From the NCBI RefSeq assembly GCF_001510655.1, contig NZ_LMVC01000003.1, positions 318,389 to 382,388 on the forward strand: DNA of 64,000 nucleotides. The letters are read 5' to 3'. The notes beneath the pieces were generated by a model. That model was not told the origin of the DNA. It ran no database searches and worked only from the letters and a program-made list of their open reading frames with translations. A program made the position numbers and the translations under genes. Source of the stretch: Fictibacillus sp. FJAT-27399 (lineage in GTDB: Bacteria > Bacillota > Bacilli > Bacillales > Fictibacillaceae). Below, piece after piece: positions 32,819 to 53,712 of the stretch. Position 1 is the first letter of the stretch; every line of letters begins with the position of its first letter.

Positions 32819-32846
32819 TTTACGGCTTCTTTAAAAAATGTTTACA
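32819..32846 (+). promoter_or_regulatory. PhoP-box-like array before the MBOAT gene
   Basis: TTTACG (32819), TTTAAA (32830) and TTTACA (32841) stand exactly 11 bp apart. It is the weakest array by sequence and lies only 31 bases before the start codon, so it may act by repression if real. Confidence 0.35.
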
Positions 32847-32877
32847 AAATAAAGTACAAACGAAAGGACTTTTTTTT

Positions 32878-34302
32878 ATGCTTTTTAGTTCAACTGTATT
32901 CTTGTTTTTATTCTTGCCAATCGTATTGGTGCTTTATTTCCTTTCTCCGCGTCCGTTTAAGAATACGGTATTGCTCGGTGCTAGTTTGTTTTTTTATGCA
33001 TGGGGTGAACCGCGGTTTGCCATTATCATGCTCTTTTCCACCGCGATGAACTATGTGTTTGCACTGATCGTCGATGCGAAGCGTGAGGACACAACGAAGG
33101 TGAAGTGGATCATGGGAGCCATGGTTGTTTCTAACCTGCTTCTACTTGGCGTGTTTAAGTATTCGAACTTTATCGTGGATAATATTAACGCAATGTTGGG
33201 GACGGGCATCGATATTCCTAAGATTCCGCTGCCGTTGGGAATCTCCTTCTTTACGTTTCACGCCATAAGCTATGTGATCGATGTCTACCATAAAGAAAAA
33301 GCGCAGAAAAACCCGATCAACCTGGCGCTTTATATCGCGTTTTTTCCACAGCTGATCGCAGGGCCAATCGTCCGATATCATACGATTTCTGACCAGCTTA
33401 AAATGCGTTTTGAGACGTTCCAGCGGTTTGCTTACGGAACAAAGCGGTTCATTATGGGGTTGGGAAAAAAAATGATCCTCGCCAACGGCTGCGCTTATGT
33501 GGCTGACCATATTTTCGCCCAGAACCCGGGAAGCATGTCGACTAGTCTTGCCTGGATCGGAATCATCGCCTACTCCCTTCAGATTTACTTTGATTTTTCG
33601 GGGTATTCCGATATGGCCATCGGGCTGGCCAAGATGTTTGGCTTTGACTTTCTTGAAAACTTCAACTATCCATACATCTCACGTTCCATCAGTGAGTTCT
33701 GGCGCCGCTGGCATATCTCGCTTGGCTCCTGGTTCCGTGATTATGTTTACATTCCTCTCGGGGGAAACCGAAAAGGGGAGATGAGGACGTATTGGAACCT
33801 GTTCATTGTCTGGATGGCAACCGGAATCTGGCATGGAGCCAGTTGGACCTTTATCGCCTGGGGTCTGTATTATGGAGCATTCATCATGCTTGAAAAGGCG
33901 TTCCTCGGAAAGCTGCTCAAACAGCTGCCGCGTTTTATCCAGCACTCTTATGCTGTTTTTATCGTGATTATCGGCTGGGTGTTCTTCCGTTCTGAAACGT
34001 TCAGTTACGCTTATGCTTACATTCAGACCATGTTTGGATTCAATGGTACAGGTCTTTGGGACACACATGTTTCTTATTATCTTACCCAGTATGGAGTAGT
34101 CATCCTGCTCGCCATCATTGGATCAACGCCATTATTAAAGCTCTTGATCGACAAGGTCGAGGACAAAGCGGAAATATCCCAAGGAATCCGTATTTTCGGC
34201 CGGGATATCGCGGTGACAAGCTATTATGCTGTCATCCTCGTCATTACCGTCGTTTACATGGTGTCTAATTCGTTTAACCCATTCATTTATTTCCGTTTCT
34301 AA
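32878..34302 (+). CDS. MBOAT-family O-acyltransferase (DltB/AlgI-like)
   Basis: 474 residues with about ten membrane segments. Signatures are LPLGISFFTFHAISYVIDVY, FFPQLIAGPIVRY, FDFSGYSDMAIGLAKMFGF, SISEFWRRWHISLGSWFRDYVYIPLGG and the invariant His in TGIWHGASWTF. MBOAT proteins pass acyl (usually acetyl) groups across the membrane to exported polymers: AlgI for alginate, PatA for peptidoglycan, DltB for D-alanine. No dltA or dltC is present, so D-alanylation is unlikely. The next gene encodes a DHHW/AlgJ-like partner, giving the classical two-part O-acetylation pair, probably for teichoic acid or the second polymer (inference). The start has CGAAAGGAC upstream. Confidence 0.9.
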   Translation: MLFSSTVFLFLFLPIVLVLYFLSPRPFKNTVLLGASLFFYAWGEPRFAIIMLFSTAMNYVFALIVDAKREDTTKVKWIMGAMVVSNLLLLGVFKYSNFIVDNINAMLGTGIDIPKIPLPLGISFFTFHAISYVIDVYHKEKAQKNPINLALYIAFFPQLIAGPIVRYHTISDQLKMRFETFQRFAYGTKRFIMGLGKKMILANGCAYVADHIFAQNPGSMSTSLAWIGIIAYSLQIYFDFSGYSDMAIGLAKMFGFDFLENFNYPYISRSISEFWRRWHISLGSWFRDYVYIPLGGNRKGEMRTYWNLFIVWMATGIWHGASWTFIAWGLYYGAFIMLEKAFLGKLLKQLPRFIQHSYAVFIVIIGWVFFRSETFSYAYAYIQTMFGFNGTGLWDTHVSYYLTQYGVVILLAIIGSTPLLKLLIDKVEDKAEISQGIRIFGRDIAVTSYYAVILVITVVYMVSNSFNPFIYFRF

Positions 34303-34334
34303 AAGATTTCATAGAGAAAGGAGAGGATCAAGTC

Positions 34335-35528
34335 ATGAAGAAAAAAGCTGCTGATATTGTTTTGGTTGGATTTTTGCTGCTGTTCATCTTTGGCTTCGGA
34401 TTATGGACATGGCTGAAGGATGATCAGCACGTGTCAGCCTTGGAGAACAGGGATTTGAAAATGCGCCCAGATGCGACGGTTCAGAGGCTGCTTTCCGGGG
34501 ATTATTTTAAACAATTTGAAGCATATTTTAATGATCAATTCCCGGGCAGACAGGCCTTTATTGAAGCCAATGCATCGGTTGATAAATACATCATGCAGAA
34601 GGATGAGATACGGGATGTGTATTCTCTAAAGAATGGCTACCTGATCAATCCGGTGCATCCGAAAGATAAGACGAAGGAAGTAAACGATAAGGTCAATTCC
34701 TTCGCTCATACGCTGAAAAAGAAAAACATTGATGTGTATTTTGCATTGCCACCGAATAAATCCACCATTATGGAGAAAAAACTCCCGGATTACATCGAGG
34801 CTCACGGCAATGAACTGTCGGACAAGCTGATGGCAGGTTTCTCAAAGGATGTTCATGCGATGGATTTAAGGCCGACTATTCAGCCTCATCTTCAAGAGGA
34901 CAATATGTATTTCCACACCGACCATCACTGGAAACCGCGTGCAGCACATTATGCGTATGAAAAGGTTATTGATGAAATGAGCAAACAGCATCCTGGTGTC
35001 GGCAAGCCGATTCCGAAAAGCCAGTTTACATGGAAAGAGGCTCCTGAGACATTTTATGGATCCGACGCACGGAAAACAACGAAGTCGTATGCTTCCAAAT
35101 CGGATACGATCACGATTGCTAAGCCGAAGTTCAAAGAAAAGCCGATTTCCATCTGTTATCGAAAAACGTGCGGCCATAAATTTTATGACATGTCCAAGTT
35201 AAAGTCAGAAGGGACATATGCCAACCGTTATGAGACTTATTTCTCTGGAGATGTATCGGAGGCTGTCATCAAGAACCCCAACAAGCCAAAAGGACCTAAA
35301 GTGCTGATTCTGAAGGATTCGTATGTGAACCCGATGATTCAGTTCGTGTCCCGCAACTTTAGCGAGACACGGATCATAGATATGCGCCACTACAAACAGA
35401 AGAGCGTCTATGAATACATTGACCAGCATGATATTGATGCCGTCTTATTCGTGCACAATATCAACTCCATCAACATCACGCCAGCCTTTGTAGACTTCAA
35501 ACACCCAGGCGGCGGAGAGAACCAATAA
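34335..35528 (+). CDS. DHHW/AlgX-AlgJ-like SGNH-type O-acetylation partner
   Basis: 397 residues with one N-terminal membrane anchor (about 8-28) and an extracytoplasmic domain. The motif YFHTDHHWKPRAAHYAYE (about residues 192-210) is the name-giving DHHW signature; ILKDSYVNPMIQF near 317-330 holds the likely nucleophile Ser, and the DHHW region supplies the Asp/His. Relatives receive acetyl groups from an MBOAT protein and move them to a polysaccharide outside the membrane. It is 32 bases downstream of the MBOAT gene, with AAAGGAGAGG before ATG 34335. A short degenerate REP-like half (35559-35571) and a terminator follow. Confidence 0.87.
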   Translation: MKKKAADIVLVGFLLLFIFGFGLWTWLKDDQHVSALENRDLKMRPDATVQRLLSGDYFKQFEAYFNDQFPGRQAFIEANASVDKYIMQKDEIRDVYSLKNGYLINPVHPKDKTKEVNDKVNSFAHTLKKKNIDVYFALPPNKSTIMEKKLPDYIEAHGNELSDKLMAGFSKDVHAMDLRPTIQPHLQEDNMYFHTDHHWKPRAAHYAYEKVIDEMSKQHPGVGKPIPKSQFTWKEAPETFYGSDARKTTKSYASKSDTITIAKPKFKEKPISICYRKTCGHKFYDMSKLKSEGTYANRYETYFSGDVSEAVIKNPNKPKGPKVLILKDSYVNPMIQFVSRNFSETRIIDMRHYKQKSVYEYIDQHDIDAVLFVHNINSINITPAFVDFKHPGGGENQ

Positions 35529-35594
35529 CCGTGTTAATGGCGCGGTGCTAATTGTCGCGGTGTCAGGCACCGCTAATAGACAAATTGAGAAAAC

Positions 35595-35639
35595 CATCCA
35601 TACCGGGAGGACAGCCTCCTGGGAGTGGATGTTTTTTTT
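35595..35639 (+). terminator. Terminator of the MBOAT-DHHW unit
   Basis: CATCCA..CCGGGAGG / CCTCCTGG..TGGATG followed by eight T. Confidence 0.8.
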
Positions 35640-35754
35640 CTTTTTAAAATCGAAAAGGACGGCTGGGGCAGCAGTTTTTTTAAAAAAGGACTAATTAGGG
35701 GTTTTAAAGCTTACTCAGGGGCAACTAAAGCTGCTTTTTGGAGCTGAAATACTC

Positions 35755-35856
35755 ATTTACTGTCCAAAACACATGATTTACCCGCCAAAACAGAGAAAAT
35801 ACTGTCCAAAATAAGAAAATACAAGCCAAAATCGAAAAAATACGAGCCAAACGGAC
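35755..35856. repeat. Five tandem 20-21-bp degenerate repeats
   Basis: Units start at 35755, 35776, 35797, 35817 and 35838. Each reads roughly (A/T)(A/T)(A/T)TAC-NNN-CCAAAA-N5-GA. No gene is visible between 35640 and 35920. ACTAATTAGGG(G)TTTA just upstream (35691) recurs inverted at about 47.97 kb, so both may be relics of one intergenic repeat. Confidence 0.6.
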
Positions 35857-35919
35857 ATTATGGAAACTAACATACGGCCAGGGGCATTCACAAAAAAAAG
35901 ACATCCAGCCAGACTCGCC

Positions 35920-35953: not shown

Positions 35954-35963
35954 CACTTTCTTC

Positions 35964-37250: not shown

Positions 37251-37264
37251 GGTTTGATGAAATT

Positions 37265-38014
37265 TTATCGGACTGGAACTTTCGTCATCTGCTGCATTTT
37301 GAGTTGAAGAACTTTAAAAGCAAATTGCGGAAGAGCGATCTGCCGTTTCCAGCGGGATGGCTGCTTCACTAGGCGGTAGAACCACTCCAGGTTCATCTTC
37401 TGCCAAACTTCTGGTGCACGCTGCACTTCTCCGGCAAGAACATCAAATGTGCCGCCGACTCCCATGAAGATACCGTGTTCGAAGCGGGAAAGATGCTGGC
37501 TGATCCAGGCTTCCTGGCGGCCGGCACCTAGAGCAACCAGGACGATGTCCGGTTTAATGTGCTCGATCGTGCTCGGGATTTTATCATCGTTCAGATCAAA
37601 GAATCCATGATGGTAACCGGCGATGGTCACGTTTGGATATTCCGCTTCAATCGCTTCTGCAGCTTTTTCAATCACCTTATCCTGACCGCCAAGCAGATAA
37701 ACACTGTAGTTTTTCTCATTCGCAAGGCTTAGCAGGCGAAGGGTCAGATCAAAACCAGTCACGCGTTCAGGGAGCGGAAGTCCGAGAAGTCCTGCTGATT
37801 TAATGATGCCGATTCCATCTGCTGTCACGTAGTCCGCGTTTTTGATGACACTCATAAAATCTTCTTCTTTACGCGCCTTCATCACGACTTCAGGGTTCGC
37901 CGTTACGACGAATGCCTTCTTACGGTCCTCAAGGTGAGATTGAAGTGTATTTATAAAGTTGTTAATCGTTGTATTTAGAAAGTCTATTCCTAATATGTTC
38001 ACTGTATTGTTCAT
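37265..38014 (-). CDS. tagA: N-acetylmannosaminyltransferase TagA (WecG/TagA/CpsF family)
   Basis: 249 residues. Motifs are FVVTANPEVVMKARKEEDF (with the catalytic-region Asp further on), NADYVTADGIGIIKSAGLLG, ERVTGFDL, YLLGGQDKVIEKAAEAI, KPDIVLVALGAGRQEAWI and MGVGGTFDVLAGEVQRAPEVWQKMNLEWFYRL. It adds ManNAc from UDP-ManNAc to lipid-linked GlcNAc-1-P, giving the teichoic acid linkage disaccharide. The start is ATG 38014 behind GTGGGGA. It is divergent from tagD, as in B. subtilis, with PhoP-box-like arrays in the 552-base gap. Confidence 0.95.
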   Translation of the reverse strand: MNNTVNILGIDFLNTTINNFINTLQSHLEDRKKAFVVTANPEVVMKARKEEDFMSVIKNADYVTADGIGIIKSAGLLGLPLPERVTGFDLTLRLLSLANEKNYSVYLLGGQDKVIEKAAEAIEAEYPNVTIAGYHHGFFDLNDDKIPSTIEHIKPDIVLVALGAGRQEAWISQHLSRFEHGIFMGVGGTFDVLAGEVQRAPEVWQKMNLEWFYRLVKQPSRWKRQIALPQFAFKVLQLKMQQMTKVPVR

Positions 38015-38262
38015 AGTTAATTCCCCACTTTTAGTGATTAAATCATGCACAGCCTCTGCAAAAGGACTAGGTTTGTCCGACGTCCTGTCTGCAGCTAAAT
38101 GCCTAGAGCATTCAACAGCTGTTTAATATGTGAGTTGCATTTATTCCGAATGAATCGAGTGAGCAAGAAATAAATGTCATTGTTTATTAAGACCTTGTAA
38201 AAAGACCTTAAAGATTATATTATAAGTATTGACGTTCCAAAGGGGAACATCTTTTAAAACCT

Positions 38263-38314
38263 AGTATACCATGAAACTTCTAAGTTTGTAAAAAGTATAT
38301 TAAGATTTCGTTAA
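38263..38314 (-). promoter_or_regulatory. PhoP-box-like array and promoter of tagA
   Basis: On the minus strand TTAACG (38314), TTAATA (38303) and TTTACA (38292) are exactly 11 bp apart. The last hexamer can be a -35, followed by an 18-base spacer and TATACT at 38268-38263. This would give a leader of about 245 bases. Confidence 0.55.
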
Positions 38315-38414
38315 CGTAAGGCTGAAATGAGCTTATTGTCGGCCGCGCAGTGCTTTAACGCTATTATATAAAGAAGCTTTTAATTTGTATTCCCTTTATA
38401 TTATTCATAAAACA

Positions 38415-38514
38415 TTTACAATAAGTTAATAAAACGTCAAATCCATGCGAAGAGATTAATAGCGAGAGAGACAAGCATCGATATAATTTACAAAATATTT
38501 ACCTGTTATTAATT
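38415..38514 (+). promoter_or_regulatory. PhoP-box-like arrays before tagD
   Basis: TTTACA (38415) and TTAATA (38426), then TTTACA (38487), TTTACC (38498) and TTAATT (38509), each pair 11 bp apart. A TATAAT at 38482-38487 touches the second array. The remaining gap 38015-38566 contains no gene. Confidence 0.55.
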
Positions 38515-38566
38515 TATTGGAAGAAGGGTAAATACAACTAGATCAATTTAAGGAGAGGATTGTAAG

Positions 38567-38965
38567 ATGAAAAAGGTGTTAACATACGGTACATTTGACC
38601 TGCTTCATTGGGGGCATATCAACTTATTGAGAAGAGCAAAAGATCTTGGTGACCATCTGACTGTTGGTTTATCAGCAGATGAGTTCAATGCGATCAAAAA
38701 TAAAAAATCATACCATAGCTTTGAGAATCGTAAAATGATTTTGGAGTCCATCCGTTATGTGGATGAAGTCATTGCGGAAAAGACTTGGGACCAAAAAATC
38801 TCTGATGTCGTAGATAACAACATCGATATTTTTGTAATGGGTGACGATTGGGAAGGGAAATTTGACTTCTTGAAAGAGTATTGTGAAGTGGTTTATTTGC
38901 CGCGTACGATCGGAATCTCGACTTCTCAGATCAAAAAAGATCTACTTACTGTTAAAAATGGTTAA
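38567..38965 (+). CDS. tagD: Glycerol-3-phosphate cytidylyltransferase
   Basis: 132 residues, full length for the family. The nucleotidyltransferase motifs are TYGTFDLLHWGHINLL (HxGH at about 14-17) and RTIGISTSQIK (RTxGxST at about 113-119). It makes CDP-glycerol from glycerol-3-phosphate and CTP, the donor for TagB, TagF and the other glycerophosphotransferases in this window. The ribosome site is AAGGAGAGG. Its end overlaps tagB by eight bases. Confidence 0.97.
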   Translation: MKKVLTYGTFDLLHWGHINLLRRAKDLGDHLTVGLSADEFNAIKNKKSYHSFENRKMILESIRYVDEVIAEKTWDQKISDVVDNNIDIFVMGDDWEGKFDFLKEYCEVVYLPRTIGISTSQIKKDLLTVKNG

Positions 38966-40157
38966 AGAAATAGCTATCTGGCTGTATCTGTTTTACTTCA
39001 AGCTTCAGTTTACATTTTGTAAACTGTTTCCTGTGCGGAAGAATAAGGTAACCTTTGTTGTCTCTTTTGGGGATAACTCCGTGTTTCTTTATGAAGAATT
39101 GAAGAAGCTGCAGCCGGATAGCCATATTGTTTTTTTGGCGGCGAAAAAAGCGATTCCTAAATTGCAGCCCTACCAAAACAGTGCAAAACTTATCACCTTT
39201 GAAAATTCGATAATGAGCATGGCCAGGTCGGCGTATCACCTGGCAACTTCCAGAGTGGTCCTGGTAGATAATTATTTTGGTTTCCTGTCAGTCACCAATT
39301 TTAAGAAAGAAACAGAATGCATACAGCTTTGGCATGCCGCGGGCGCTATTAAAACGTTTGGACTGAAGGATGAATCCATTTCCTTTAGAAGCCGGCGTGC
39401 GCATAAGCGGTTTTTACATGTTTACAAAAACTTTCACAAAGTCGTTGTTGGATCGGACGCGATGGCTGATATATTTAAAGAAGCTTTTCAACTTTCATCC
39501 GCCAATTTTTTACGGACCGGTGTACCAAGAACCGATCTTTTTTTTAGTGGAAATCGGACGAAAGCTGTTAAAGAAAAACTATATCGGGAAAATACTGTTC
39601 TGAAAGACAAAAAAGTGATTTTGTACGCACCGACCTATCGGGATGACCAGTTGGATGAGTTTGAACTGCAGCTTGATCTTGATATGCTGCAGCGTGAACT
39701 TGGAGCAGAATATGTGCTTCTGATCCGCAGCCATCCAGTACTTAAGAATAAAATAAATGTTGAAGAGCAGTATCCCGGCTTTGCATTTGATTATTCCACC
39801 GGTTCTGATATTAATGAAATTTTATTGATTACCGATATTTTAATTAGTGATTATTCTTCCATTCCTTATGAATTTTCATTATTAAACAGACCGATGATTT
39901 TTTACCCGTACGATCTAAAAGAGTATAGTAAAACAAGGGGGCTTTGGGACAGCTATGAAAAACTCGTCCCGGGGCCGATCGTGTTTGACAGCCTCGAAAT
40001 GGTAAAGGTAATTAAAGAAAAGGGTTATGACATGAATAAGGTTCAGCAATTTTCGGCCATGTGGAACCAATATCACTTCGGGCACTCGAGCCGGTTATTG
40101 GCTGAATATATTCTTGAAACAGAAAGAGAGAGAAACGTAAATGCAAGCGGAAGCTAA
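38958..40157 (+). CDS. tagB: Teichoic acid primase TagB (CDP-glycerol glycerophosphotransferase)
   Basis: 399 residues. After an amphipathic/hydrophobic N-terminus (IAIWLYLFYFKLQFTFCKLF) comes the Glyphos_transf domain with LWHAAGAIKTFGLKD (His about 126), GSDAMADIF, TGVPRTDLFF, LYAPTYRDDQLDE, LLIRSHPVL (His about 259) and ILISDYSSIPYEFSLL. TagB adds the first glycerol phosphate to the ManNAc-GlcNAc linkage unit. The HAAG form rather than HGTP, and the size, agree with TagB rather than TagF. ATG 38958 lies inside the tagD end; the tail overlaps tagF by 17 bases. Confidence 0.9.
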   Translation: MVKEIAIWLYLFYFKLQFTFCKLFPVRKNKVTFVVSFGDNSVFLYEELKKLQPDSHIVFLAAKKAIPKLQPYQNSAKLITFENSIMSMARSAYHLATSRVVLVDNYFGFLSVTNFKKETECIQLWHAAGAIKTFGLKDESISFRSRRAHKRFLHVYKNFHKVVVGSDAMADIFKEAFQLSSANFLRTGVPRTDLFFSGNRTKAVKEKLYRENTVLKDKKVILYAPTYRDDQLDEFELQLDLDMLQRELGAEYVLLIRSHPVLKNKINVEEQYPGFAFDYSTGSDINEILLITDILISDYSSIPYEFSLLNRPMIFYPYDLKEYSKTRGLWDSYEKLVPGPIVFDSLEMVKVIKEKGYDMNKVQQFSAMWNQYHFGHSSRLLAEYILETERERNVNASGS

Positions 40158-42459: not shown

Positions 42460-42488
42460 ACCAATCTCTTTGGGAGAGGATTACGAAA

Positions 42489-43307: not shown

Positions 43308-43322
43308 TGCGGAGAGATGGAC

Positions 43323-44150
43323 ATGAGTAAAACTGTTGTAGTACGCAATGTAACGAAAAAATTTAAAATGTATAAAAAGCCCGCTGAAAAGCTGCTGGAC
43401 ATCATTCTGCCCAACGGATATGGCGAAGATTTTTATGCGATTCAAAATATAAGCTTTGAGGCAGATCAAGGCGATGTCATCGGCATCGTCGGGGTCAATG
43501 GATCAGGGAAATCCACGCTTTCCAACTTGATCTCCGGGATTATCCCGCCGACGTCGGGTACAATCGATCTAAAGGGAGAGGTATCGCTTATTGCGATCGC
43601 CTCTGGCCTGAACAACGAGCTGACCGGCCGTGAAAACATTGAGCTGAAATGCTTGATGCTTGGCTTCAGCAAGCAGGATATCAAAAAGCTTGAACCGGAG
43701 ATCATAGAGTTTGCTGAAATCGGAAAGTTTATCGATCAGCCGGTTAAAAAATATTCGAGCGGGATGAAGTCGCGTCTCGGGTTTGCTATTTCTGTGACGG
43801 TTGATCCTGACATCCTCGTGATTGACGAAGCGCTTTCTGTCGGTGACCAGACGTTTGCCGATAAGTGTCTCGACAAGATGAACGAATTCAAAGAGCGTGG
43901 AAAAACGATCTTTTTTATCAGCCACTCCATGGGGCAGGTAAAGAAGTTCTGTGAAAAGATTCTTTGGCTAGAATACGGAGAAGTCAGGGATTACGGCCCA
44001 ATGAAGGACGTACTTCCGAAGTATCAGGCATTTTTAAAAGAATATAAGGCGATGACAAAAGAAGAGAAGAAACGATTTAAAGAACAAGTGCAAAGAAAGC
44101 AAAGCGGACAGCCGCCAGTGGATAAAAAAGAGTTGCAATCAACGAAATAA
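43323..44150 (+). CDS. tagH: Teichoic acid ABC transporter, ATPase subunit
   Basis: 275 residues. Walker A GVNGSGKST (about 56-64), ABC signature KYSSGMKSRLGFA, Walker B DILVIDEALSVGD, and switch His in FFISHSMGQV. It powers TagG. The length resembles S. aureus TarH (about 264) and lacks the long extracellular C-terminus of B. subtilis TagH (about 527). ATG 43323 is chosen because GGAGAG stands seven bases before it; ATG 43317 is too close. A terminator-like hairpin follows. Confidence 0.94.
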   Translation: MSKTVVVRNVTKKFKMYKKPAEKLLDIILPNGYGEDFYAIQNISFEADQGDVIGIVGVNGSGKSTLSNLISGIIPPTSGTIDLKGEVSLIAIASGLNNELTGRENIELKCLMLGFSKQDIKKLEPEIIEFAEIGKFIDQPVKKYSSGMKSRLGFAISVTVDPDILVIDEALSVGDQTFADKCLDKMNEFKERGKTIFFISHSMGQVKKFCEKILWLEYGEVRDYGPMKDVLPKYQAFLKEYKAMTKEEKKRFKEQVQRKQSGQPPVDKKELQSTK

Positions 44151-44170
44151 TATATAACTGAAAATAAATT

Positions 44171-44210
44171 GGGTGCTGCTCTTGAAAAAGAGAATGCATC
44201 CTATTTTTTT
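44171..44210 (+). terminator. Terminator after tagH
   Basis: GGGTGC..CTCTT / AAGAG..GCATCC with a GAAA loop, then eight T. Confidence 0.7.
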
Positions 44211-44327
44211 TAGACAAGATAAGGGAACTTGATACAGTTTCTAACCATAATTTTTCTTTAAACGAAAATGAAAAAACAGATAATGATCTACGGCAACACA
44301 AAGGTTCATTTAGAAAAAGGAGAAGTA

Positions 44328-47300
44328 ATGATGAAGAGACAAGGGGATTTCCTAAATCGTATGATTAAGCCTTTTACACCACAACCCAAGATAAAAAAAA
44401 GAAACTCTTATAAACAAGCCTTGACGATCCATCAGGACTACGAAATTATTAGGCTGACCGGCCGGTTGGGTAAAGCAGATATTATTGCAAAAGAACTGCT
44501 TCTTTCCTCGAGGGAAGATGGAGAGATGATTAAAGTAGCAGAAGGAGGCACTTCGCCAGATTTCACTTTTGAATTCTCCATTCAGCAGATTCTTCCCTAT
44601 TTTAAAGAAGGGGAAAAGAGCAATTTTGATCTGTATCTAAATATACAGCGACCTAAAGAACACTTTACCGAAGAATCCTTTACAAAGATTGAAGAACGGG
44701 CGGTTTTGCAAACGAGAGACGATGAAGGTACAGATGTCATCTACCCCGTCCGCCTCGGCCGTTTTAACGAAATGGAGGTACTGCATTACGTTCCTTATGA
44801 GGATCAAGGTCTGCAGACGTTCATTTACGTAACAAAGAAAGGCAACGTGTCGCTGGCTGCCAACGCTATGGTCAGGCTCAAGCCAAAGGTGCAGATCGAT
44901 GAGATTGTCATCCGTAATCACCAGCTATCCTTTAACGGAAAGCTATTTACAAGGGATGCAAGCATCAAGAAAGCTGTATTGCTGCTGAAAGGGCGCGATA
45001 CAAATAATGAAGTAAGAATAGATGTTACTACGGAAAAATTAAGTGAACAGACGTTGAATAAATACGGGATGCACCGTTATAAGTACGAAGTGGAAGCTGA
45101 CTTTCAAAGGATTTATGAAGATTTGGCGTTCGGACAGGACATCTATGATTTCTTCTTTGAACTAACCTTTGATTTTGCTGAAGAACCTCTGCTGATCCGT
45201 ATAGGAAAACCACGTTTTAGAGCGAGGAACTTCTTAAAAGATGGCTATGTTGAAAGAGGACAGAATATCTATGCTTTGACCCCGTATTTCACATTTAAAG
45301 GATTTAATCTATCCCTTCAGGCAGATGAATTCTCTCACGAGGCTTACTGGTATATGAAGAAAATTAAGCGATGGTCATGGCTCCTGCGCCCATTTTACCG
45401 CAGCCAAAACATATGGCTTGTCGGTGAGCGGCCTTATAAAGCACAAGATACAGGATTTCATTTCTTTAAATATCTCAGGGAGAAGCATCCGAAAAGAAAA
45501 GCGTATTACGTGATCGAAGAAACGTCGCCTGAATTAAATCATGTGAAACCGCTTGGCAATGTTCTCTATTATAAGTCCAAGGAGCATATATTCCATGCAT
45601 TTATGGCAAGAAAAGTGATTGGGTCTCATCATCCTGATTATCTGTTTCCATTACGCACGAAAAGCTATAAAAAGGCGATTAAAGCAACAAAAGTCTTTTT
45701 GCAGCACGGTATTATGGGAACAAAGAACATGGTCGCCAATTATGGAAAGAGAGCACCGGGATTTGATACAGATCTATTTCTTGTCAGTTCTGATTTTGAA
45801 AAAAATATGATTGTCCGTGACTTTGGCTACCCTTACGATGAGGTTAAAGTTACGGGGCTCTCAAGGTTTGACAGCCTTCTTGCAGGAGACGTGGAGACGA
45901 AACGCCAGATTCTCATCATCCCTACATGGCGGGACTGGATCATCAATGACGATATCTTTTTGGAAAGTGAGTATTTTGAAAGATACCGGGAACTGATCAA
46001 TCATCCAAAACTGCATGAACTGGCCGACAAACTGGGTTTTGAATTGATCTTCTGCCTTCATCCTAACATGCAGAAATTCACTTCCTATTTTACAGGTACG
46101 CGCGTGCGCATCATCAGCCAGGGGGAAGTGGATGTCCAGCGGCTTTTGAAAGAATCGGCTATGATGATTACCGATTATTCATCGGTCGGTTTCGACTTCA
46201 GTTTTCTTCATAAGCCCATTTTGTATTATCAGTTTGACAAGAACCGTTTTATCGGGAAAAGACGCTCACACCTTGATCTTGAAAACGATTTACCCGGTCA
46301 GATTGTCTATGAAGTGGATGACATTCTTGATGAAGTAGAAAAGTATGCGAATCAGCAATTTAAAGCTGAAGAAGAGTATATTCAGCGTTCGGCTAAGTTT
46401 TTAAAATACCGCGATCGGCATCATAATGATCGGATCTATGAAGCGATTCAAGAATTTGAACCCCGTAAGAACTGGTTTGTGAAGCTTAAAGAAAGTGAGC
46501 TTTTTCAGGTGTTGTTTAAACGGTACAGAAAGAGCAAATATTATTTTCCTACCATGCGTTTGTTCTATAATGCTGCGCGGCGGTTGATGCCTGTTGACCC
46601 AAACCTGATCGTTTTTGAAAGCGGGGTAGGCAAGCAGTATGCCGACAGCCCGCGGGCGATCTATGAAGAAATCGTCAGCCGGGGATTGAACTATAAGAAG
46701 GTATGGATCTATAACAAGAATATTAGATTTTCCGATGAGAACACGAAGATTGTTAAGCGGCTCAGCCCGAGCTATTATTACTATCTCGCTAAAGCACGCT
46801 ACTGGGTGAACAATCAGAACTTCCCGACCTATCTTGGGAAACGCCCGCAAACGACGTATATCCAGACATGGCACGGAACACCGCTCAAGAAAATGCTGTT
46901 TGATATCGAAAAGGTTGAAGGCCGTGATGAAGGTTATGTTGAGCGTGTGCATCGGGCGACGAAGACATGGGATTATCTCATCTCACCAAGTGCCTATGCA
47001 ACGAAAGCCTTCCGCAGTGCGTTCCGCTATGAAGGCGAGTTGCTGGAGATCGGCTATCCGCGCAACGATATCTTTTACCGCGATGACCGCGAGCAGCTGG
47101 CCGAAAGGATCCTCCAGCGCCTGAACATCCCAGAGGGAAAAAAGGTTATTCTCTACGCGCCGACCTTCCGGGATAACCAGACGTCGAAAAACAATAAGTT
47201 TACGTTCGAGCTGCAGTTTGATTTTGAACAGATGCAGCGAGAACTCGGCGATGAGTATGTGCTGCTGCTTAGGATGCACGTCGTTGTCAGCAATAAAGTG

Positions 47301-47681
47301 TACATTCCGGAAGAATATCGAGACTTTGTGTACAATGTATCGAACTATCCAGATATTCAGGAACTTTATCTTGTGACTGATGTTTTGATCACCGACTATT
47401 CTTCGGTCATGTTTGACTTTGCGAACATGAACCGCCCGATTCTGTTCTTCACCTATGATTTCGAGATGTACCGTGATCAGCTCCGCGGCTTTTATATGGA
47501 CTTTGAAAATGAAGCGCCCGGCCCGCTGCTGCGCACATCTGATGAAGTAACAGCGGCGATCAAGAACATTGATCAGGTGAAGCATGACTATGAAGGCCGT
47601 TATCAAGCCTTTCATGAGAAGTTTTGTTCACTGGAAGACGGGCATGCGGCAAGCCGTGTAGTGGATCGGTTTTTTGATTAA
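44328..47681 (+). CDS. Two-module CDP-glycerol glycerophosphotransferase-family protein
   Basis: 1117 residues. A TagF-like beta-rich N-terminus (about 1-330) leads to a first GT-B module (about 370-720) with LREKHPKRKAYYVIEE, FLQHGIMGTKNM (His about 459), FCLHPNMQ and MMITDYSSVGFDFSFLH. A second, complete module (about 765-1117) has FESGVGKQYADSPRAIYEE, IQTWHGTPLKKML (His about 848), YAPTFRDNQTSKN, LRMHVVV (His about 984) and VLITDYSSVMFDFANM. Each module type transfers glycerol- or polyol-phosphate from a CDP donor. Two active sites could add alternating units, or one could prime and one extend (inference). ATG 44328 follows AAAGGAG. It is monocistronic behind the tagH terminator. Confidence 0.88.
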   Translation: MMKRQGDFLNRMIKPFTPQPKIKKRNSYKQALTIHQDYEIIRLTGRLGKADIIAKELLLSSREDGEMIKVAEGGTSPDFTFEFSIQQILPYFKEGEKSNFDLYLNIQRPKEHFTEESFTKIEERAVLQTRDDEGTDVIYPVRLGRFNEMEVLHYVPYEDQGLQTFIYVTKKGNVSLAANAMVRLKPKVQIDEIVIRNHQLSFNGKLFTRDASIKKAVLLLKGRDTNNEVRIDVTTEKLSEQTLNKYGMHRYKYEVEADFQRIYEDLAFGQDIYDFFFELTFDFAEEPLLIRIGKPRFRARNFLKDGYVERGQNIYALTPYFTFKGFNLSLQADEFSHEAYWYMKKIKRWSWLLRPFYRSQNIWLVGERPYKAQDTGFHFFKYLREKHPKRKAYYVIEETSPELNHVKPLGNVLYYKSKEHIFHAFMARKVIGSHHPDYLFPLRTKSYKKAIKATKVFLQHGIMGTKNMVANYGKRAPGFDTDLFLVSSDFEKNMIVRDFGYPYDEVKVTGLSRFDSLLAGDVETKRQILIIPTWRDWIINDDIFLESEYFERYRELINHPKLHELADKLGFELIFCLHPNMQKFTSYFTGTRVRIISQGEVDVQRLLKESAMMITDYSSVGFDFSFLHKPILYYQFDKNRFIGKRRSHLDLENDLPGQIVYEVDDILDEVEKYANQQFKAEEEYIQRSAKFLKYRDRHHNDRIYEAIQEFEPRKNWFVKLKESELFQVLFKRYRKSKYYFPTMRLFYNAARRLMPVDPNLIVFESGVGKQYADSPRAIYEEIVSRGLNYKKVWIYNKNIRFSDENTKIVKRLSPSYYYYLAKARYWVNNQNFPTYLGKRPQTTYIQTWHGTPLKKMLFDIEKVEGRDEGYVERVHRATKTWDYLISPSAYATKAFRSAFRYEGELLEIGYPRNDIFYRDDREQLAERILQRLNIPEGKKVILYAPTFRDNQTSKNNKFTFELQFDFEQMQRELGDEYVLLLRMHVVVSNKVYIPEEYRDFVYNVSNYPDIQELYLVTDVLITDYSSVMFDFANMNRPILFFTYDFEMYRDQLRGFYMDFENEAPGPLLRTSDEVTAAIKNIDQVKHDYEGRYQAFHEKFCSLEDGHAASRVVDRFFD

Positions 47682-48127: not shown

Positions 48128-48131
48128 AAAC

Positions 48132-49199
48132 TTAATTTCCGTTGCTTGCTTCCGAAGTGCTATCTGTAGTGGAATCGGTACTGCTGGAATCTGTTCCGGT
48201 ACCCGTTCCGCTGTCCTGTGTGCCTGAGCCGTCATAAGCAAGATGCTCTTTCAGCTGGGCGGACACATTTTGTACGGATTGTTCGTTTAAGGAATAGTAA
48301 TAAATATTATTGATTCTTGCGTCTGTTCCTTCTAATTTAAGCGATTCGACATCCCCTATGGATTTCGCGTATTTGAGAAGTGCGAGCATGTTGCCGAACG
48401 TAAAGTTGGTGGACATGTTGTCGCCGACGTTCTCGATAAGCTTGCCGTATTTAGGAATCGATTTGATCTGTGTTGATTCTTTAAGGATAGCTTCGACAAT
48501 CTGTTTTTGCCTGTCTCCGCGCATGATGTCTGAGTCGGCATGACGCGTACGCGCGTATGCGAGAGCTTCCTCAGCGTTTAGCCTTTGCTGGCCTGGCTCG
48601 ATTGTGATGGCTCTAGGACGGTCCTTGCTGTCCTGTTCGACGATTTTCTTCTGTACGTCGACATCAACGCCGCCAAGTGTATCTACAATCTGCAAGAATG
48701 CATCAAAGTTTACTCTTACATAGTAGTCGACCGGGATGTTGAACAGATGTTCCACTGTATCCACGGTAAGATCCATGCCGCCGAACGCGTGGGCGTGGGT
48801 GATCTTGTCCTTGTTGATGCGCCCCGGAATCGTAACGTAGGAGTCACGAGGGATGCTGACCATTTTTACGGATTTTTGATCACGGTTGAAGGTAGCAAGG
48901 ATGAGGGCGTCTGTCCGGTTGCCTTCAAATCCCTTTTCTCCTTTACGGTGTTTGCTGTCATCGATCCCTGCGATAAGGACGGAAAAGTTGTCCTTGCCCG
49001 GGTCGACTTCATTCATACGCAGCTCGGATTTATCCCCCCGTGAAAGGGTCTCCTGTGCTTTGGATGATGCATTGGCTAATTTATAGGTTAAATAAGATCC
49101 GAAACCGACTGTTCCTAAAAGAATCAGAATCAATGGGAAGACGATAAACTTTATACGTCTCTTTTTCTTCTTCTTTTTCCGCATTTGTTGACGGTCCAT
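48132..49199 (-). CDS. tagU: LytR-CpsA-Psr (LCP) family glycopolymer ligase, TagU-like
   Basis: 355 residues. A Lys/Arg-rich cytoplasmic head (MRKKKKKKRRIKF), one membrane anchor (about 17-40) and the LCP domain with FSVLIAGIDDSKHRKGEKGFEGNRTDALILATF, VSIPRDSYVTIPG, DKITHAHAFGG, VNFDAFLQIVDTLGGVDV and ALAYARTRHADSDIMRGDRQKQIVEAIL (pyrophosphate-contacting Arg). LCP enzymes attach lipid-linked anionic polymers to peptidoglycan outside the membrane. Lying between two polymer loci it could serve either. The tail is Ser/Thr/Asp/Gly-rich. ATG 49199 follows AAGGAGA. Confidence 0.93.
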   Translation of the reverse strand: MDRQQMRKKKKKKRRIKFIVFPLILILLGTVGFGSYLTYKLANASSKAQETLSRGDKSELRMNEVDPGKDNFSVLIAGIDDSKHRKGEKGFEGNRTDALILATFNRDQKSVKMVSIPRDSYVTIPGRINKDKITHAHAFGGMDLTVDTVEHLFNIPVDYYVRVNFDAFLQIVDTLGGVDVDVQKKIVEQDSKDRPRAITIEPGQQRLNAEEALAYARTRHADSDIMRGDRQKQIVEAILKESTQIKSIPKYGKLIENVGDNMSTNFTFGNMLALLKYAKSIGDVESLKLEGTDARINNIYYYSLNEQSVQNVSAQLKEHLAYDGSGTQDSGTGTGTDSSSTDSTTDSTSEASNGN

Positions 49200-49459
49200 C
49201 TATAGTAATCTCCTTTTCTTCTCTACATCTATATCTATGGTTTTGTTGGTCTGTTATTTTCTTTTCTGGTGACAGAATAGGATCGTACAGACAAAGCAAC
49301 TTCGTAATCCTTGTCGAAATGGCTCGACATAAGGAACGTAAATTTATGGAAGCATACAATAAAGATACCTTTAAAGTTGTGTAAATACAATAAAAATCAT
49401 ATAAAGAATATTACAGTTTAATGAAGAATTCGGTAACTGTAAAGACAATCGGACAAAGA

Positions 49460-49498
49460 TTTACAAAAGCTTCATGAGAAATTTAAGTTGAGTTAATA
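49460..49498 (+). promoter_or_regulatory. PhoP-box-like array before the Wzx operon
   Basis: TTTACA (49460), TTCATG (49471), TTTAAG (49482) and TTAATA (49493): four hexamers at exactly 11-bp steps, two of them perfect. A possible -10 TATCAT lies at 49508. The gap 49200-49663 holds no other gene. Confidence 0.5.
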
Positions 49499-49663
49499 AA
49501 TGACCCCTATCATGATAGTTCAGGCCTCCGTTAGGCTTTTTATGCGAAAAACGGAATTGCAAAAATAAAAATCGGCCTGCGAAAGATTAAGAGAACAGCC
49601 TTATACATGCTCTTTTTGGCAAGAATGATTAAGAGCTTCAGGATTCAAAGGATGGTGAACACA

Positions 49664-50929
49664 TTGCAGAATGGCATAAAAACAGCAAGAGAGCACATGA
49701 TCCTGATAACCAACCGTTATCCTTACCTGCCCGGGGAGCAGTTTTTAGAAACCGAAATGAAATACATGGAACACTTATTTGAAAAGATTGAAGTTGCTGC
49801 TGTAAACGGAACCGGAGAGCAGCGGCCTGTTCCTGAAAAAGTGCAAGTCCACCAGCTGCCGGGAAGGCCTGGGGGCCCAAAAAAGTACATTCATACGTTT
49901 TACAGTGTGACGGCAGATCCTCAGGGACGCCGCTGGCTTTCAAGAGAGCTTCCAAAAGCCCGTATGTTTGGCAGCAGAGGGTTGATGCAGGTGGCTAACT
50001 GGCTGAGCCATGCAATTCGGATCCGTGATGAAATCAAGAGAAAGTGGCTGGATGATCCGAATTTTGATATAAGCAATTCCGTTTTTTATTCGTACTGGCT
50101 GACGCCTTCAGCGGTAGCTCTTGCGATGCTGAAGGAAACGCACCGGGATCTTTTTGCGGTATCCCGCGCCCACGGAGGGGACGTGTACGATTACCGGCAT
50201 TCACTGCCTTATCTGCCGTTTCAGGAAAGAGTGATCTCGTCACTCGATTCGGTGCGGATGATTTCTGATGACGGAAAGAACTATTTTGAATCGAAATATC
50301 CAAACGCGAATGCTCATCTTCTCGTGAACCGGCTCGGGACTGAAAAACCTGGCTTTACCGCAGCCCCTTCACAAGACGGAATTCTCAGGATTGTTTCCTG
50401 TTCATACGTAAAGCCGGTAAAACGGCTGAATCTGTTGGTGCAGGCGTTAAAACAAACGGCATCTCCGATCCACTGGACGCATATTGGAGACGGTGAACAG
50501 CGGGAAGAGATCGAAAACAAAGCGAAAAATGAGCTGCCGGAACATGTTACCATCGATTTTAAAGGACATTGGAAGCAGCAGCAGATCTTTGAATTTTATC
50601 AGTCACAGCCGGTTGATCTTTTTGTGAACGTGAGCGAGAGTGAAGGAATTCCCGTGACCATTATGGAAGCGTTCAGTACTTCTATTCCGGTCATAGCGAC
50701 AGATGTCGGCGGTGTAAGGGAACTCGTTGATGAAAGCAATGGTTTCTTGGTTCCGTCAGAGGTATCGTCTGCTGAGCTGGCGGATGATATCGAGCGATTC
50801 GCCGCGCTGCCGGATGAAAAGAAAATGAAGTACCGTTCGAACGCCTTTGCAAAATGGGAAAAGGAATATGATGCAAAGAAAAATTACACAGACTTTTTAA
50901 AAAGTGTAAAGAAAGGGAGCGGATCGTGA
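49664..50929 (+). CDS. Family 4 glycosyltransferase
   Basis: About 421 residues, GT-B fold. The N-terminal NRYPYLPGEQFLETEMKYM and the C-terminal donor site (ESEGIPVTIMEAFSTSIPVIATDVGGVRELV) with SCSYVKPVKRLNLLVQAL are those of retaining GT4 enzymes. It adds a sugar from a nucleotide donor to a lipid-linked oligosaccharide in the cytoplasm. First gene of an operon with the flippase (one-base gap) and the epimerase. The start is uncertain: TTG 49664 has GGTGA five bases upstream; ATG 49652 and 49697 are alternatives. Confidence 0.85.
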   Translation: MQNGIKTAREHMILITNRYPYLPGEQFLETEMKYMEHLFEKIEVAAVNGTGEQRPVPEKVQVHQLPGRPGGPKKYIHTFYSVTADPQGRRWLSRELPKARMFGSRGLMQVANWLSHAIRIRDEIKRKWLDDPNFDISNSVFYSYWLTPSAVALAMLKETHRDLFAVSRAHGGDVYDYRHSLPYLPFQERVISSLDSVRMISDDGKNYFESKYPNANAHLLVNRLGTEKPGFTAAPSQDGILRIVSCSYVKPVKRLNLLVQALKQTASPIHWTHIGDGEQREEIENKAKNELPEHVTIDFKGHWKQQQIFEFYQSQPVDLFVNVSESEGIPVTIMEAFSTSIPVIATDVGGVRELVDESNGFLVPSEVSSAELADDIERFAALPDEKKMKYRSNAFAKWEKEYDAKKNYTDFLKSVKKGSGS

Positions 50930-50930
50930 T

Positions 50931-52259
50931 ATGAGCGACGGCAATCGAAGCTTCGTCAGAAACAGTTTCTTAACTTTTTCTAGACAGGTGACCAATATCG
51001 TCATCGGCATATTGCTGCTTGTCGTGCTGGCCAGGATTCTGGGACCTGCCGGACAAGGTAAGTATGCACTGATCACCCTGCTGCCGACAGTTCTGCTGAC
51101 CTTTTTGACGCTCGGCATCAACACGTCGACGATCTATTACATCAGCAGGGGAGACGTGAAGCTGAATACGGTCTACAACAATAACATCATCATCGGTACG
51201 CTTCTTAGCCTGGTCAGTATGGGGATCGGGGCGATTGTGATCTTCTTTTTTTCGGAAAAGTTTTTCAATCACACCCCTCATACGCTGCTGTACCTTTGCT
51301 TATTGGCATTGCCGTTCATGTTTTTGCGCGAGTATTTTCAGACGGTCTTTCAGGGCTTGCAGGATTTTAAACTGTTCAATACGGCCATGGTCGTGAACCA
51401 GGTGGGAATTCTCGGCTTTGTCGCTGTTTTCGTCCTTATTTTCAGGCTCGGCCTTCCAGGGGCGATTATGGCGTTCATCGCCGGGAACTTGATCAACGTC
51501 GCCTACATGGTCTATCAGCTGAAGAAAAAGCATAGACTGCGTTTTAATATCAGGGGATTCTCTTGGGAGTATTTCCGCAAATCTGTCAATTACGGGCTTA
51601 AAGCGCATATCAGTAACTTTGCGAGCTTTTTGAACTATCGTATCGTTGTTTTCCTCATCGGGTTTTTCATGGTGGATTCAGCGGTAGGGATCTACGTAAC
51701 CGCAATGAATATTGGGGAGAGGCTGACTATCTTTGCGGCTTCTATATCCAATGTCCTATACCCAAAAATCGCAGCCATTGAAACCGATGAAGAGAGAAAC
51801 CATCTTACTTCTCTCGTATCAAGAAACATTATGGCGATTACGTTAGTCATTGCGCTGATTGGGACTATTGTAGCAAAGGATCTGATCGTTACGCTTTTTG
51901 GACATCAGTATGAGAACAGTGCGAGCCTGCTTCAAATCACTCTGCCCGGTGTGGCGCTTCTGTCGGTCGAGAAGATTCTGTCCAATGACATTGCCGGCCG
52001 CGGAAAGCCCGAGTTAAACATGTATCTTTCCATCTTCAATGTGCTGTTTAATCTGGTGCTGAACGTGGTGCTCATTCCGAGGTATGGAGTGACCGGAGCC
52101 GCATTTTCTGCGACGATCACGTATTTTGTCAGCTTCCTCGTAAAGGTCGTCTTATACAAAAAAGTGACAAACGAGCCGTACCACCGCTTTTTGCTGATCA
52201 AGAAAAGCGACCTGCGGCTCTATAGAACGGTTATTCGAAAACTAAAACTCAGGTACTGA
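50931..52259 (+). CDS. Wzx-type oligosaccharide flippase
   Basis: 442 residues with 12 to 14 membrane segments. The N-terminus NSFLTFSRQVTNIVIGILLLVVLARILGPAGQGKYAL is the classical polysaccharide-biosynthesis (MOP) start. It moves undecaprenyl-linked repeat units to the outer face. Together with the Wzy-like protein at 60913 it shows that the second polymer uses the Wzx/Wzy route, unlike the TagGH route of teichoic acid. The start is ATG 50931 behind AAAGGGAGCGG. Confidence 0.92.
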   Translation: MSDGNRSFVRNSFLTFSRQVTNIVIGILLLVVLARILGPAGQGKYALITLLPTVLLTFLTLGINTSTIYYISRGDVKLNTVYNNNIIIGTLLSLVSMGIGAIVIFFFSEKFFNHTPHTLLYLCLLALPFMFLREYFQTVFQGLQDFKLFNTAMVVNQVGILGFVAVFVLIFRLGLPGAIMAFIAGNLINVAYMVYQLKKKHRLRFNIRGFSWEYFRKSVNYGLKAHISNFASFLNYRIVVFLIGFFMVDSAVGIYVTAMNIGERLTIFAASISNVLYPKIAAIETDEERNHLTSLVSRNIMAITLVIALIGTIVAKDLIVTLFGHQYENSASLLQITLPGVALLSVEKILSNDIAGRGKPELNMYLSIFNVLFNLVLNVVLIPRYGVTGAAFSATITYFVSFLVKVVLYKKVTNEPYHRFLLIKKSDLRLYRTVIRKLKLRY

Positions 52260-52273
52260 CGGGAGGATTCAGC

Positions 52274-53197
52274 ATGAATGTATTAGTAACGGGCGGAGCA
52301 GGATTCGTCGGGACATTTACGAAAAACGCACTGATGAAGGAAGGGCATACCCCGATTTTGGTGGATAACTTTCTGACGGGAAGCGAAAGCAATGTAAACA
52401 CGGAAGATGTGATCATCCAGAGTGATATTCTTGATCCCTCTCTGCCGGAACGGCTGCAGCCTTATGAAATTGACGCGATCATCCATCTGGCGGCCCAGAC
52501 AAGTGTGCCTTCTTCCGTAGCAGACCCGCTTAACGATATGAGGATGAACATTGAAGGGACGGTTCGGATGCTGGAGCTGGCCAAATCTCTGAATGTGAAG
52601 AAGTTTGTCTTCGCATCAACAGCGGCCATCTATGGCGATAATGAAAACGCGCCGCTCAAAGAGGGTGAGCATTTTCAGCCAACTGCTCCATACGGGATTT
52701 CAAAAGCTACATGTGAAATGTACATCGCCAACTTTTGCGAAACACACAGCATCGGCTACTCGATACTTCGCTATTCCAACATCTATGGACCGAAGCAGAC
52801 GAAGGATGGAGAAGGCGGCGTTATCAAGATTTTCCTTGATAAGCTGCTGAGCGGACAGCCGGTCTCCATTTATGGCGACGGCCATCAGACCCGTGATTTT
52901 ATCTTTGTTGAGGACGTGGCCCGGGCCAATACCGCTGCCTTGTTATGTAAGGACGGCATCTTTAACGTGAGCACGAACGAAGAGATCACGGTGAACGAGC
53001 TGTACCGCGTTATGGCGAAGGAAATGGACAGCAGCCTGGAGCCTGTTTACGGAGAGCCGCGTGAAGGTGATATCTACCGCAGCTGCCTCGACAACCGCAA
53101 GTTCATGGCGCTTGTGAACTGGAAGCCTGAGGTGCCCCTTGCAGAAGGTATCCAGGAGACAGTGAAACAGATGCAACGTGCAGAGAATTTAACATAA
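52274..53197 (+). CDS. NAD-dependent nucleotide-sugar epimerase (GalE/WbpP-like)
   Basis: 307 residues, extended short-chain dehydrogenase fold. NAD site VTGGAGFVGTFT (7-18), Asp in LVDNFLTG, HLAAQTSVPSS, catalytic Ser/Thr in FASTAAIYG, catalytic Tyr and Lys in YGISK, and RYSNIYGPKQ. Probably a UDP-hexose or UDP-HexNAc 4-epimerase supplying one sugar of the repeat unit. GGGAGGA precedes ATG 52274. Last gene of the operon; a terminator follows. Confidence 0.9.
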   Translation: MNVLVTGGAGFVGTFTKNALMKEGHTPILVDNFLTGSESNVNTEDVIIQSDILDPSLPERLQPYEIDAIIHLAAQTSVPSSVADPLNDMRMNIEGTVRMLELAKSLNVKKFVFASTAAIYGDNENAPLKEGEHFQPTAPYGISKATCEMYIANFCETHSIGYSILRYSNIYGPKQTKDGEGGVIKIFLDKLLSGQPVSIYGDGHQTRDFIFVEDVARANTAALLCKDGIFNVSTNEEITVNELYRVMAKEMDSSLEPVYGEPREGDIYRSCLDNRKFMALVNWKPEVPLAEGIQETVKQMQRAENLT

Positions 53198-53224
53198 ATG
53201 CACGGACAATAAGAATATATATAT

Positions 53225-53256
53225 AGCACTCTTCTTTTTACAGAGGGGTGCTTTTC
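53225..53256 (+). terminator. Terminator of the Wzx operon
   Basis: AGCACTC / GGGTGCT stem with T-rich ends. Confidence 0.65.
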
Positions 53257-53349
53257 TTATGGGCTCATCATGTTCTGCCTGTTTGAGGGGGTCGATTCAC
53301 ATCTGGGGAGAATCTGCTTTATTAGGCTGTTTTTCACTTCATTGACAGG

Positions 53350-53494
53350 TTAATTGGAGTGCAAGGTGCGAGACTCCTGCGGGGTAAGCGTGACAGGTGA
53401 GACCCAAAGGCGCTTGCGCCGTGGGGCTCAGCGCACGCCCCGCGGAAAGCGAGCAGCCTGGAACGGAAATTAACCACCCTCAAGAGCAACAAAG
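53350..53494 (+). repeat. Dispersed repeat family B, left bracket copy
   Basis: Reads GGAGTGCAAGGTGCGAGACT at the left, the common core at 53433-53469, and CTCAAGAGCAACAAAG at the right end. The same elements occur inverted at 56122-56225. This copy has about 45 extra bases in the middle, with GGCGCTTGCGCC as a small palindrome. Confidence 0.85.
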
Positions 53495-53599
53495 GTTGCG
53501 AAAAGAGCGTTTTATTAAGAAAATGTAAATCCTATACCGCATGGCACGACAAGCCTTATCGGAAAAAGCCCCATCCTGCACCGCCTTTTGTAAATGACC

Positions 53600-53627
53600 T
53601 TAACAATCTCTTAACCGAGAATTTACC
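53600..53627 (+). promoter_or_regulatory. PhoP-box-like array before the WbpB/WbpA pair
   Basis: TTAACA (53600), TTAACC (53611) and TTTACC (53622), exactly 11 bp apart, then TTCCTT at 53633. TAATAT at 53644 stands 16 bases behind the third hexamer and can be the -10. This is the best array by sequence. Confidence 0.6.
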
Positions 53628-53712
53628 TGAAATTCCTTGGAAATAATATAAAATGAACGAAGAAATCTAGTGAACAGAAAGTTATTGTTTTTAATCAAAA
53701 GGAGTTTTGTCG

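Follow-up and report, generated by a model that had tools for sequence, protein, structure and literature searches.

In Bacillus subtilis, phosphorylated PhoP (PhoP~P) represses the tag genes (tagAB/tagDEF) and activates tuaA-H, as stated in passages of PMC6232261 and PMC13403408 that deal with these operons. The passage in PMC6232261 also places the tar operon of B. spizizenii outside PhoPR, and control thus varies among close relatives. Here we analyse a 64-kb stretch of the Fictibacillus sp. FJAT-27399 genome (C7:318389-382388 of 4.5 Mb; the whole stretch is called the window, and coordinates given without a locus are positions in it), where wall teichoic genes, among them tagD and a tagA-like gene, lie close to two operons of a putative uronic-acid polymer, one with a Wzx-like flippase (the wzx operon) and one that begins with a wbpB relative. 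It is confirmed that arrays of 11-bp-spaced, PhoP-type hexamers stand before genes of both kinds. We consider it probable that PhoP~P represses the tag genes and activates the Wlb/Wbp-type diacetamido-uronic acid cluster of this genome; we infer binding, the direction of control and the polymer chemistry from sequence.

Hexamer arrays at the polymer locus

An array is here a run of hexamers near TTHAYA, i.e. TT(A/T/C)A(C/T)A, repeated every 11 bp, with mismatches counted against TTHAYA. Three units with 0-2 mismatches occur at tagA, tagD, wbpB and an MBOAT gene, and four units with 3 at the wzx operon. The best array lies ahead of tagD, between this gene and tagA (38404..38431, plus strand; TTCATA-TTTACA-TTAATA), and is the sole zero-mismatch three-unit match in the whole genome. 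A second tagD array (38487..38514, plus; TTTACA-TTTACC-TTAATT, 2 mismatches) begins on the final base of a TATAAT (38482-38487). On the minus strand, the distal tagA array (38287..38314; TTAACG-TTAATA-TTTACA, 1 mismatch) ends in a TTTACA that forms the -35 element, 18 bp ahead of TATACT (38268-38263; this -10 was read by eye), and a proximal one (38185..38212, i.e. 38212-38185 minus; 2 mismatches) begins one base past a TATAAT (38219-38214). At tagA and tagD the arrays overlie a -35 or begin at a -10; with promoters read by eye, these look like repressor positions.

The arrays of the other two operons are arranged differently. Ahead of the wzx operon, four hexamers (49460..49498, plus; TTTACA-TTCATG-TTTAAG-TTAATA, 3 mismatches) are followed after 9 bp by TATCAT (49508-49513). 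At wbpB (53600..53638, plus), TTAACA-TTAACC-TTTACC has 2 mismatches in three units, and a poor fourth unit, itself with 2 mismatches, precedes TATAAA at 8 bp or TAAAAT at 10 bp; at wzx and wbpB alike, the four-unit layout of activated promoters is a candidate one. The MBOAT array (32819..32846, plus; TTTACG-TTTAAA-TTTACA) has 2 mismatches and fits PhoP and the wall regulator WalR equally.

All hexamers that a preliminary description of this DNA had quoted for five arrays lie where it placed them. The further site that it gave at 38415 is not separate, being the middle of the perfect array; the proximal tagA array had been missed; and the statement that there is one array at each polymer transcription unit went too far, since tagA and tagD have two each, the other units have none this strong and not every unit has an array.

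Frequency of the arrays against chance

As background we took 35 stretches of the same genome (696,001 bases), with 102,294 bp of intergenic DNA in 355 segments, and as test set the four polymer-locus gaps (2,016 bp). Period 11 shows no excess in the background, with 9 three-unit matches at up to 2 mismatches (0.088/kb) against a mean of 0.079/kb at other periods. The four gaps hold 7 such matches against 0.18 expected from this rate (Poisson P = 9e-10 given 0.177), and 3 matches at the remaining periods between 7 and 15. While the tagA-tagD gap supplies 4/7 of the matches, the 3 outside it still give P = 3e-4 given 0.132. Shuffled gaps reached the observed count 0 times per 1000 for tagA-tagD, 5 for MBOAT, 6 for wbpB and 27 for LCP-wzx. 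The comparison with other intergenic regions that the preliminary description had proposed thus shows an excess, in a test that was not blind because that description had chosen the gaps.

The excess is robust to a narrower consensus. With TTHACA, as printed in a passage of PMC12404567, there are 4 matches with up to 2 mismatches in the gaps, none at other periods and 2 in the whole background; the 38404 array then has 2 mismatches and is no longer perfect, and the wzx array is not seen. Neither TTHAYA nor TTHACA finds the 49460 array as a triplet at these thresholds: it goes uncounted because of its mismatches, and the match that is counted in the LCP-wzx gap is another one, at 49378 on the minus strand, outside the claims of the preliminary description.

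Could every array be a product of chance in AT-rich intergenic DNA? The hexamers are short and degenerate, and the whole genome is hardly enriched at 2 mismatches (160 matches vs 132 for the reversed pattern), so that single 2-mismatch arrays prove little; period-11 triplets, the best with 1 mismatch, likewise occur on both strands of an unrelated AT-rich gap in the window (10851-10889). The excess in the four gaps, the failure of any shuffle to reproduce the tagA-tagD count and a guanine-plus-cytosine content of 0.44 in two of the four gaps, the same as in the window, nevertheless make this explanation extremely improbable.

Phosphate promoters as controls

PhoPR is encoded in the genome (locus L039). 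The PhoR-type kinase exceeds the PnpS cut-off; the PhoP-type regulator stays below the curated cut-offs of named models, and its receiver is nearer to B. subtilis PhoP (1mvo, 4.7e-55) than to YycF (2zwm, 1e-40). For comparison within the genus we used seven genomes (G000-G006: G000, the reference; G001, F. enclensis; G002, F. fluitans; G005, F. solisalsi; G006, F. terranigra). Upstream of pstS, four hexamers with 1 mismatch are followed by 9 bp and TATNNT, and the array is present there in 7/7 of these genomes. At the 3' end of phoR (L039:4861-4914), an array of four hexamers (2 mismatches) begins 2 bp past the stop codon and is followed after 9 bp by TATGCT; for B. subtilis, a passage of PMC6232261 reports PhoP boxes that lie past the phoR stop and ahead of the terminator. 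The same layout (four units, 9 bp, -10) is found upstream of the alkaline phosphatase gene phoA (L196), a GDPD gene (L026) and a PAP2 gene (L021/L041). The GDPD array (L026:1451-1580) and the PAP2 phosphatase array (L041:6253-6291) both have the 9-bp spacing to the -10, and by this promoter layout the two genes are likely members of the Pho regulon. The distance to the -10 is 9 bp at pstS, phoA, GDPD, PAP2, the phoR 3' end and the wzx operon, and 8 or 10 bp at wbpB.

Because scans by mismatch have too little power over the whole genome when 2 mismatches are allowed, we used a matrix from independent promoters instead. It was trained on a small set of five phosphate promoters (pstS, phoR 3' end, phoA, GDPD and PAP2), none within the window, and three TATAAT were added to its -10 part. 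The first three entered by gene identity, arrays having already been seen there; GDPD and PAP2 were drawn for their layout from 23 matches with up to 1 mismatch (22 places), so that their leave-one-out scores are optimistic; the phosphatase genes phoD (L194) and L195 were left out. Four of the 22 places (pstS, GDPD, PAP2 and L030) have four units with up to 3 mismatches and TANNNT 8-10 bp on, and at L030 the next gene is not in the same direction; L022 has a three-unit form ahead of a 109-residue reading frame without Pfam match.

The wzx array scores 23.5 and the wbpB array 20.2. Both exceed 321/321 background gaps, the best of which (18.5) precedes a gene that, from its first residues, we take to resemble hemA, and both fall inside the leave-one-out range of 19.6-31.5. 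In this activator matrix the tagA-tagD gap scores 14.3 (reached by 1/321 background gaps) and the MBOAT gap 12.3 (5/321). The -10 of the wzx array, TATCAT, or TATAGT in G003, stands at equal distance in 7/7 genomes of an alignment read by eye. Judged by this geometry, the layout at the wzx operon and wbpB is the predicted activator layout, as at the phosphate genes.

PhoP or WalR

WalR/YycF, the regulator of wall metabolism, recognises a box given as TGTWAH-N5-TGTWAH in a passage of PMC4168254. This is an 11-bp direct repeat of related hexamers, and its opposite strand, DTWACA, overlaps the PhoP hexamer; were the arrays WalR sites, growth and wall stress would set the expression of the operons in place of phosphate. 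The two regulators tie in mismatches at the MBOAT array (2 and 2; 0 and 0 in G006) and at the three good wbpB units (2 and 2), and B. subtilis PhoR can phosphorylate YycF according to a passage of PMC13403408. Elsewhere the fit favours PhoP over WalR: at tagD 38404 (0 vs 3 mismatches) and wzx (3 vs 6), where C at position 3 and T at position 5, letters that only the PhoP hexamer allows, set the arrays apart from the WalR box; at the phosphate controls (pstS 1 vs 3, phoA 3 vs 7); and slightly at the tagA arrays (1 vs 2; 2 vs 3). The 64-kb window has no exact WalR pair on either strand, and the spacing to the -10 is that of phosphate genes. We thus regard WalR control of these operons as unlikely.

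The MBOAT array was tried as an activator site and rejected on position, as it ends 31 bp before the ATG. We keep it out of the claim for this reason, because the gene is found in 3/7 genus genomes, and because the G006 copy, a perfect triple TTTACA, has no mismatch for either PhoP or WalR and forms an exact WalR pair.

Conservation in the genus and beyond

The arrays of wzx, wbpB, MBOAT and proximal tagA were pooled from MAFFT alignments, MBOAT being compared with G006; the tagD and distal tagA arrays were left out because they are out of register in distant genomes. Between G000 and G001, 5/78 hexamer sites and 13/45 spacer sites have changed (p=0.001), and between G000 and G003, 19/78 and 21/45 (p=0.01), the true register giving the lowest p of 11 shifts in both comparisons. 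The tagD array at 38487 shows the opposite trend against G003 (hexamers 7/18, spacers 3/10).

Individually, the wzx array keeps a matrix score of 23.5-27.4 and the wbpB array one of 12.1-20.2 in 6/7 genomes, and the three wbpB hexamers are identical in these six while the DNA upstream has diverged. On the teichoic side, the proximal tagA array is present in 7/7 genomes with 2-3 mismatches and the distal one in 6/7 with 1 mismatch (not found in G003); the perfect array 38404-38431 is kept in G000, G004 and G006 only, and the second tagD array is kept in G004 and G006 and is out of register in G003.

Gaps of 60 bp or more preceded wbpB in 44 of the 80 loci surveyed, and 5/44 gaps gave a match: those of G001, G002, G005 and G006, plus a minus-strand match in L147. 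The wbpB gaps of F. norfolkensis and of two F. nanhaiensis had none. Taken together, all gaps of 72 non-Fictibacillus loci gave 20 matches at period 11; other periods gave 10.4 on average and 18 at most, and the difference is not convincing. The activator part may be either a local invention or a feature that has drifted past recognition in other lineages. At one of the outside loci, in Peribacillus cavernae, about 9.5 kb separate the wbpB relative from an upstream array of four units (L114:449-487; 1 mismatch, possible -10), whose nearest long reading frames point away.

Genes of the locus

The wall-teichoic part (37265-47681), recognised by profile matches, comprises the tagA-like gene (37265..38050, minus; WecG/TagA/CpsF superfamily, above cut-off), tagD for glycerol-3-phosphate cytidylyltransferase (38567..38965, plus; TIGR01518 above cut-off), TarB/F/L-like proteins, an ABC permease and TagH. 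An LCP transferase gene (48132-49199, minus) stands between it and the wzx operon (49607..53197, plus), which encodes a GT4 glycosyltransferase, the Wzx-like flippase and a nucleoside diphosphate (NDP)-sugar epimerase, with flippase and glycosyltransferase models below curated cut-offs. The uronic-acid operon (53707..63078, plus) encodes a WbpB/WlbA-like 3-dehydrogenase, a 6-dehydrogenase, two GT4 proteins, a DegT aminotransferase, a hexapeptide acetyltransferase, a Wzy-type protein and one unknown, all named from sequence relatives, with specificity predicted only. TagD, TagH, the LCP domain and the nucleotide-sugar 6-dehydrogenase exceed curated cut-offs; many other models of the polymer locus stay below theirs.

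Relatives of the uronic-acid operon include PDB 3q2i/3q2k (titled dehydrogenase, oxidoreductase; presumably WlbA), Cap5O, QdtB and WbpE, and QdtC. By these relatives, the Wbp/Wlb pathway set of 6-dehydrogenase, 3-dehydrogenase, aminotransferase and acetyltransferase stands together in one operon. The set points to a 2,3-diacetamido-uronic acid and to a putative polymer that would be phosphate-free; the exact sugar is not certain because the aminotransferase is closer to the QdtB type than to WbpE and the acetyltransferase matches QdtC.

Within the LCP-wzx gap, the segment 49310-49410 is strongly conserved in 7/7 genus genomes, including G003, and exceeds the wzx array in conservation. It may be the LCP promoter and contains a weak minus-strand array (49396-49358, 4 mismatches). 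Ahead of wbpB (53337-53523) stands one of many copies of a dispersed repeat that can reach about 190 bp; others are at 32328-32429, 56119-56236 and 16-83, and blastn gave 53 matches in the 814 kb examined (the query itself included and split matches counted separately). The copy ahead of wbpB is upstream of the array, which it leaves intact, and is absent at that site in G006. Some kilobases ahead of the polymer genes, the minus strand encodes a SecA-type ATPase (792 residues) and a DUF3426 protein (23252-26535).

Discussion

The following sequence of events may be proposed. At low phosphate, PhoR would phosphorylate PhoP, as homology suggests, and PhoP~P would bind the hexamers, which recur every 11 bp, in head-to-tail order along a single face of the DNA. 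Its sites at the wzx operon and wbpB would be four positions ending 8-10 bp before the -10, from which it would recruit RNA polymerase, like at pstS; at tagA and tagD it would lie over the -35, or over the -10 and start region, and block transcription. Synthesis of glycerol-phosphate wall teichoic acid would drop and a phosphate-free diacetamido-uronic acid polymer would replace its product. The phosphate switch put forward in the preliminary description is thus upheld for tagA, tagD, the wzx operon and wbpB, by (i) the presence of PhoPR, (ii) the arrays at phosphate genes and (iii) the promoter geometry, and is dropped for the MBOAT pair. Of the comparisons that it had suggested, the matrix scan ranked wzx and wbpB above the background, and in the comparison of relatives both arrays hold in 6/7 genus genomes, though not in G003 nor clearly outside the genus.

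Several observations weigh against a PhoP switch of this kind. In the matrix scan, an unrelated gap of the window (10752-10951) scores 14.3, the wzx gap reaches 17.7 at period 10, and the wbpB arrays of G001, G002, G004 and G005 (12.1-18.1) remain below the best background gap. In G003 the scores fall to 1.3 at wzx and 5.0 at wbpB. Register shifts of -1 and -2 are nearly as good as the true register, and conservation is modest support because the pooled test weakens to p=0.03 and p=0.11 without MBOAT. No clear array was found at phoD (L194) or at another alkaline phosphatase gene (L195), and nothing was found in the 39 other testable wbpB loci apart from the minus-strand match in L147.

Alternatively, functional PhoP sites could exist at tagA-tagD only, the wzx, wbpB and MBOAT arrays being look-alike AT-rich promoter DNA. 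The tagA-tagD gap does hold most of the counted matches and the genome's sole perfect one; the wzx array has 3 mismatches, and four-unit sites of that quality followed by TATNNT occur twice in the 696-kb background; and good wzx and wbpB copies are missing from G003. Neither the rank of wzx and wbpB above every background gap in an independent matrix nor the identity of three wbpB hexamers in 6/7 genomes, despite diverged upstream DNA, would be expected from look-alikes, and we judge such a restriction to be quite improbable, more so than control by WalR.

A switch that extends to the wzx operon and wbpB is best read as the teichoic-to-teichuronic switch of B. subtilis in a variant form, with a different gene set for the replacement polymer. 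TuaD was found above its curated cut-off in 0/7 genus genomes; TuaD-like dehydrogenases (462-566 bits vs a cut-off of 700) occur in six, and G006 has only the WbpA relative. The two TuaD-like loci of G000 have no array with up to 2 mismatches within 1.5-kb flanks, a promoter farther off being possible. With slightly more reason for doubt than for belief, we suggest that the place of the tua operon has been taken by a non-orthologous diacetamido-uronic acid cluster with candidate PhoP activator promoters on two units, the logic being kept and the chemistry swapped. If so, the teichoic-to-teichuronic exchange would not be peculiar to the tua genes but would hold as a principle of regulation, and one could predict from its PhoP arrays which polymer a genus uses as replacement. 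As repressor and activator layouts of one box lie side by side, the rule is directly testable at this locus. Among the matches listed from the open-access literature, no title or abstract opening dealt with a diacetamido-uronic wall polymer controlled by PhoP or with the control of Fictibacillus polymers by it.

Two described systems are close to this locus. The Wbp/Wlb pathway makes 2,3-diacetamido-uronic acid sugars, and relatives of its 6-dehydrogenase, 3-dehydrogenase, aminotransferase and acetyltransferase are likewise gathered here in one operon; the difference is that this operon adjoins wall teichoic genes and carries PhoP-type promoters. With B. subtilis PhoPR the locus would share the control of tag genes and of a phosphate-free uronic-acid polymer by one regulator, through hexamers at 11-bp steps, whereas the candidate activated operons are here of Wbp/Wlb type and lie beside tag, in place of tua.

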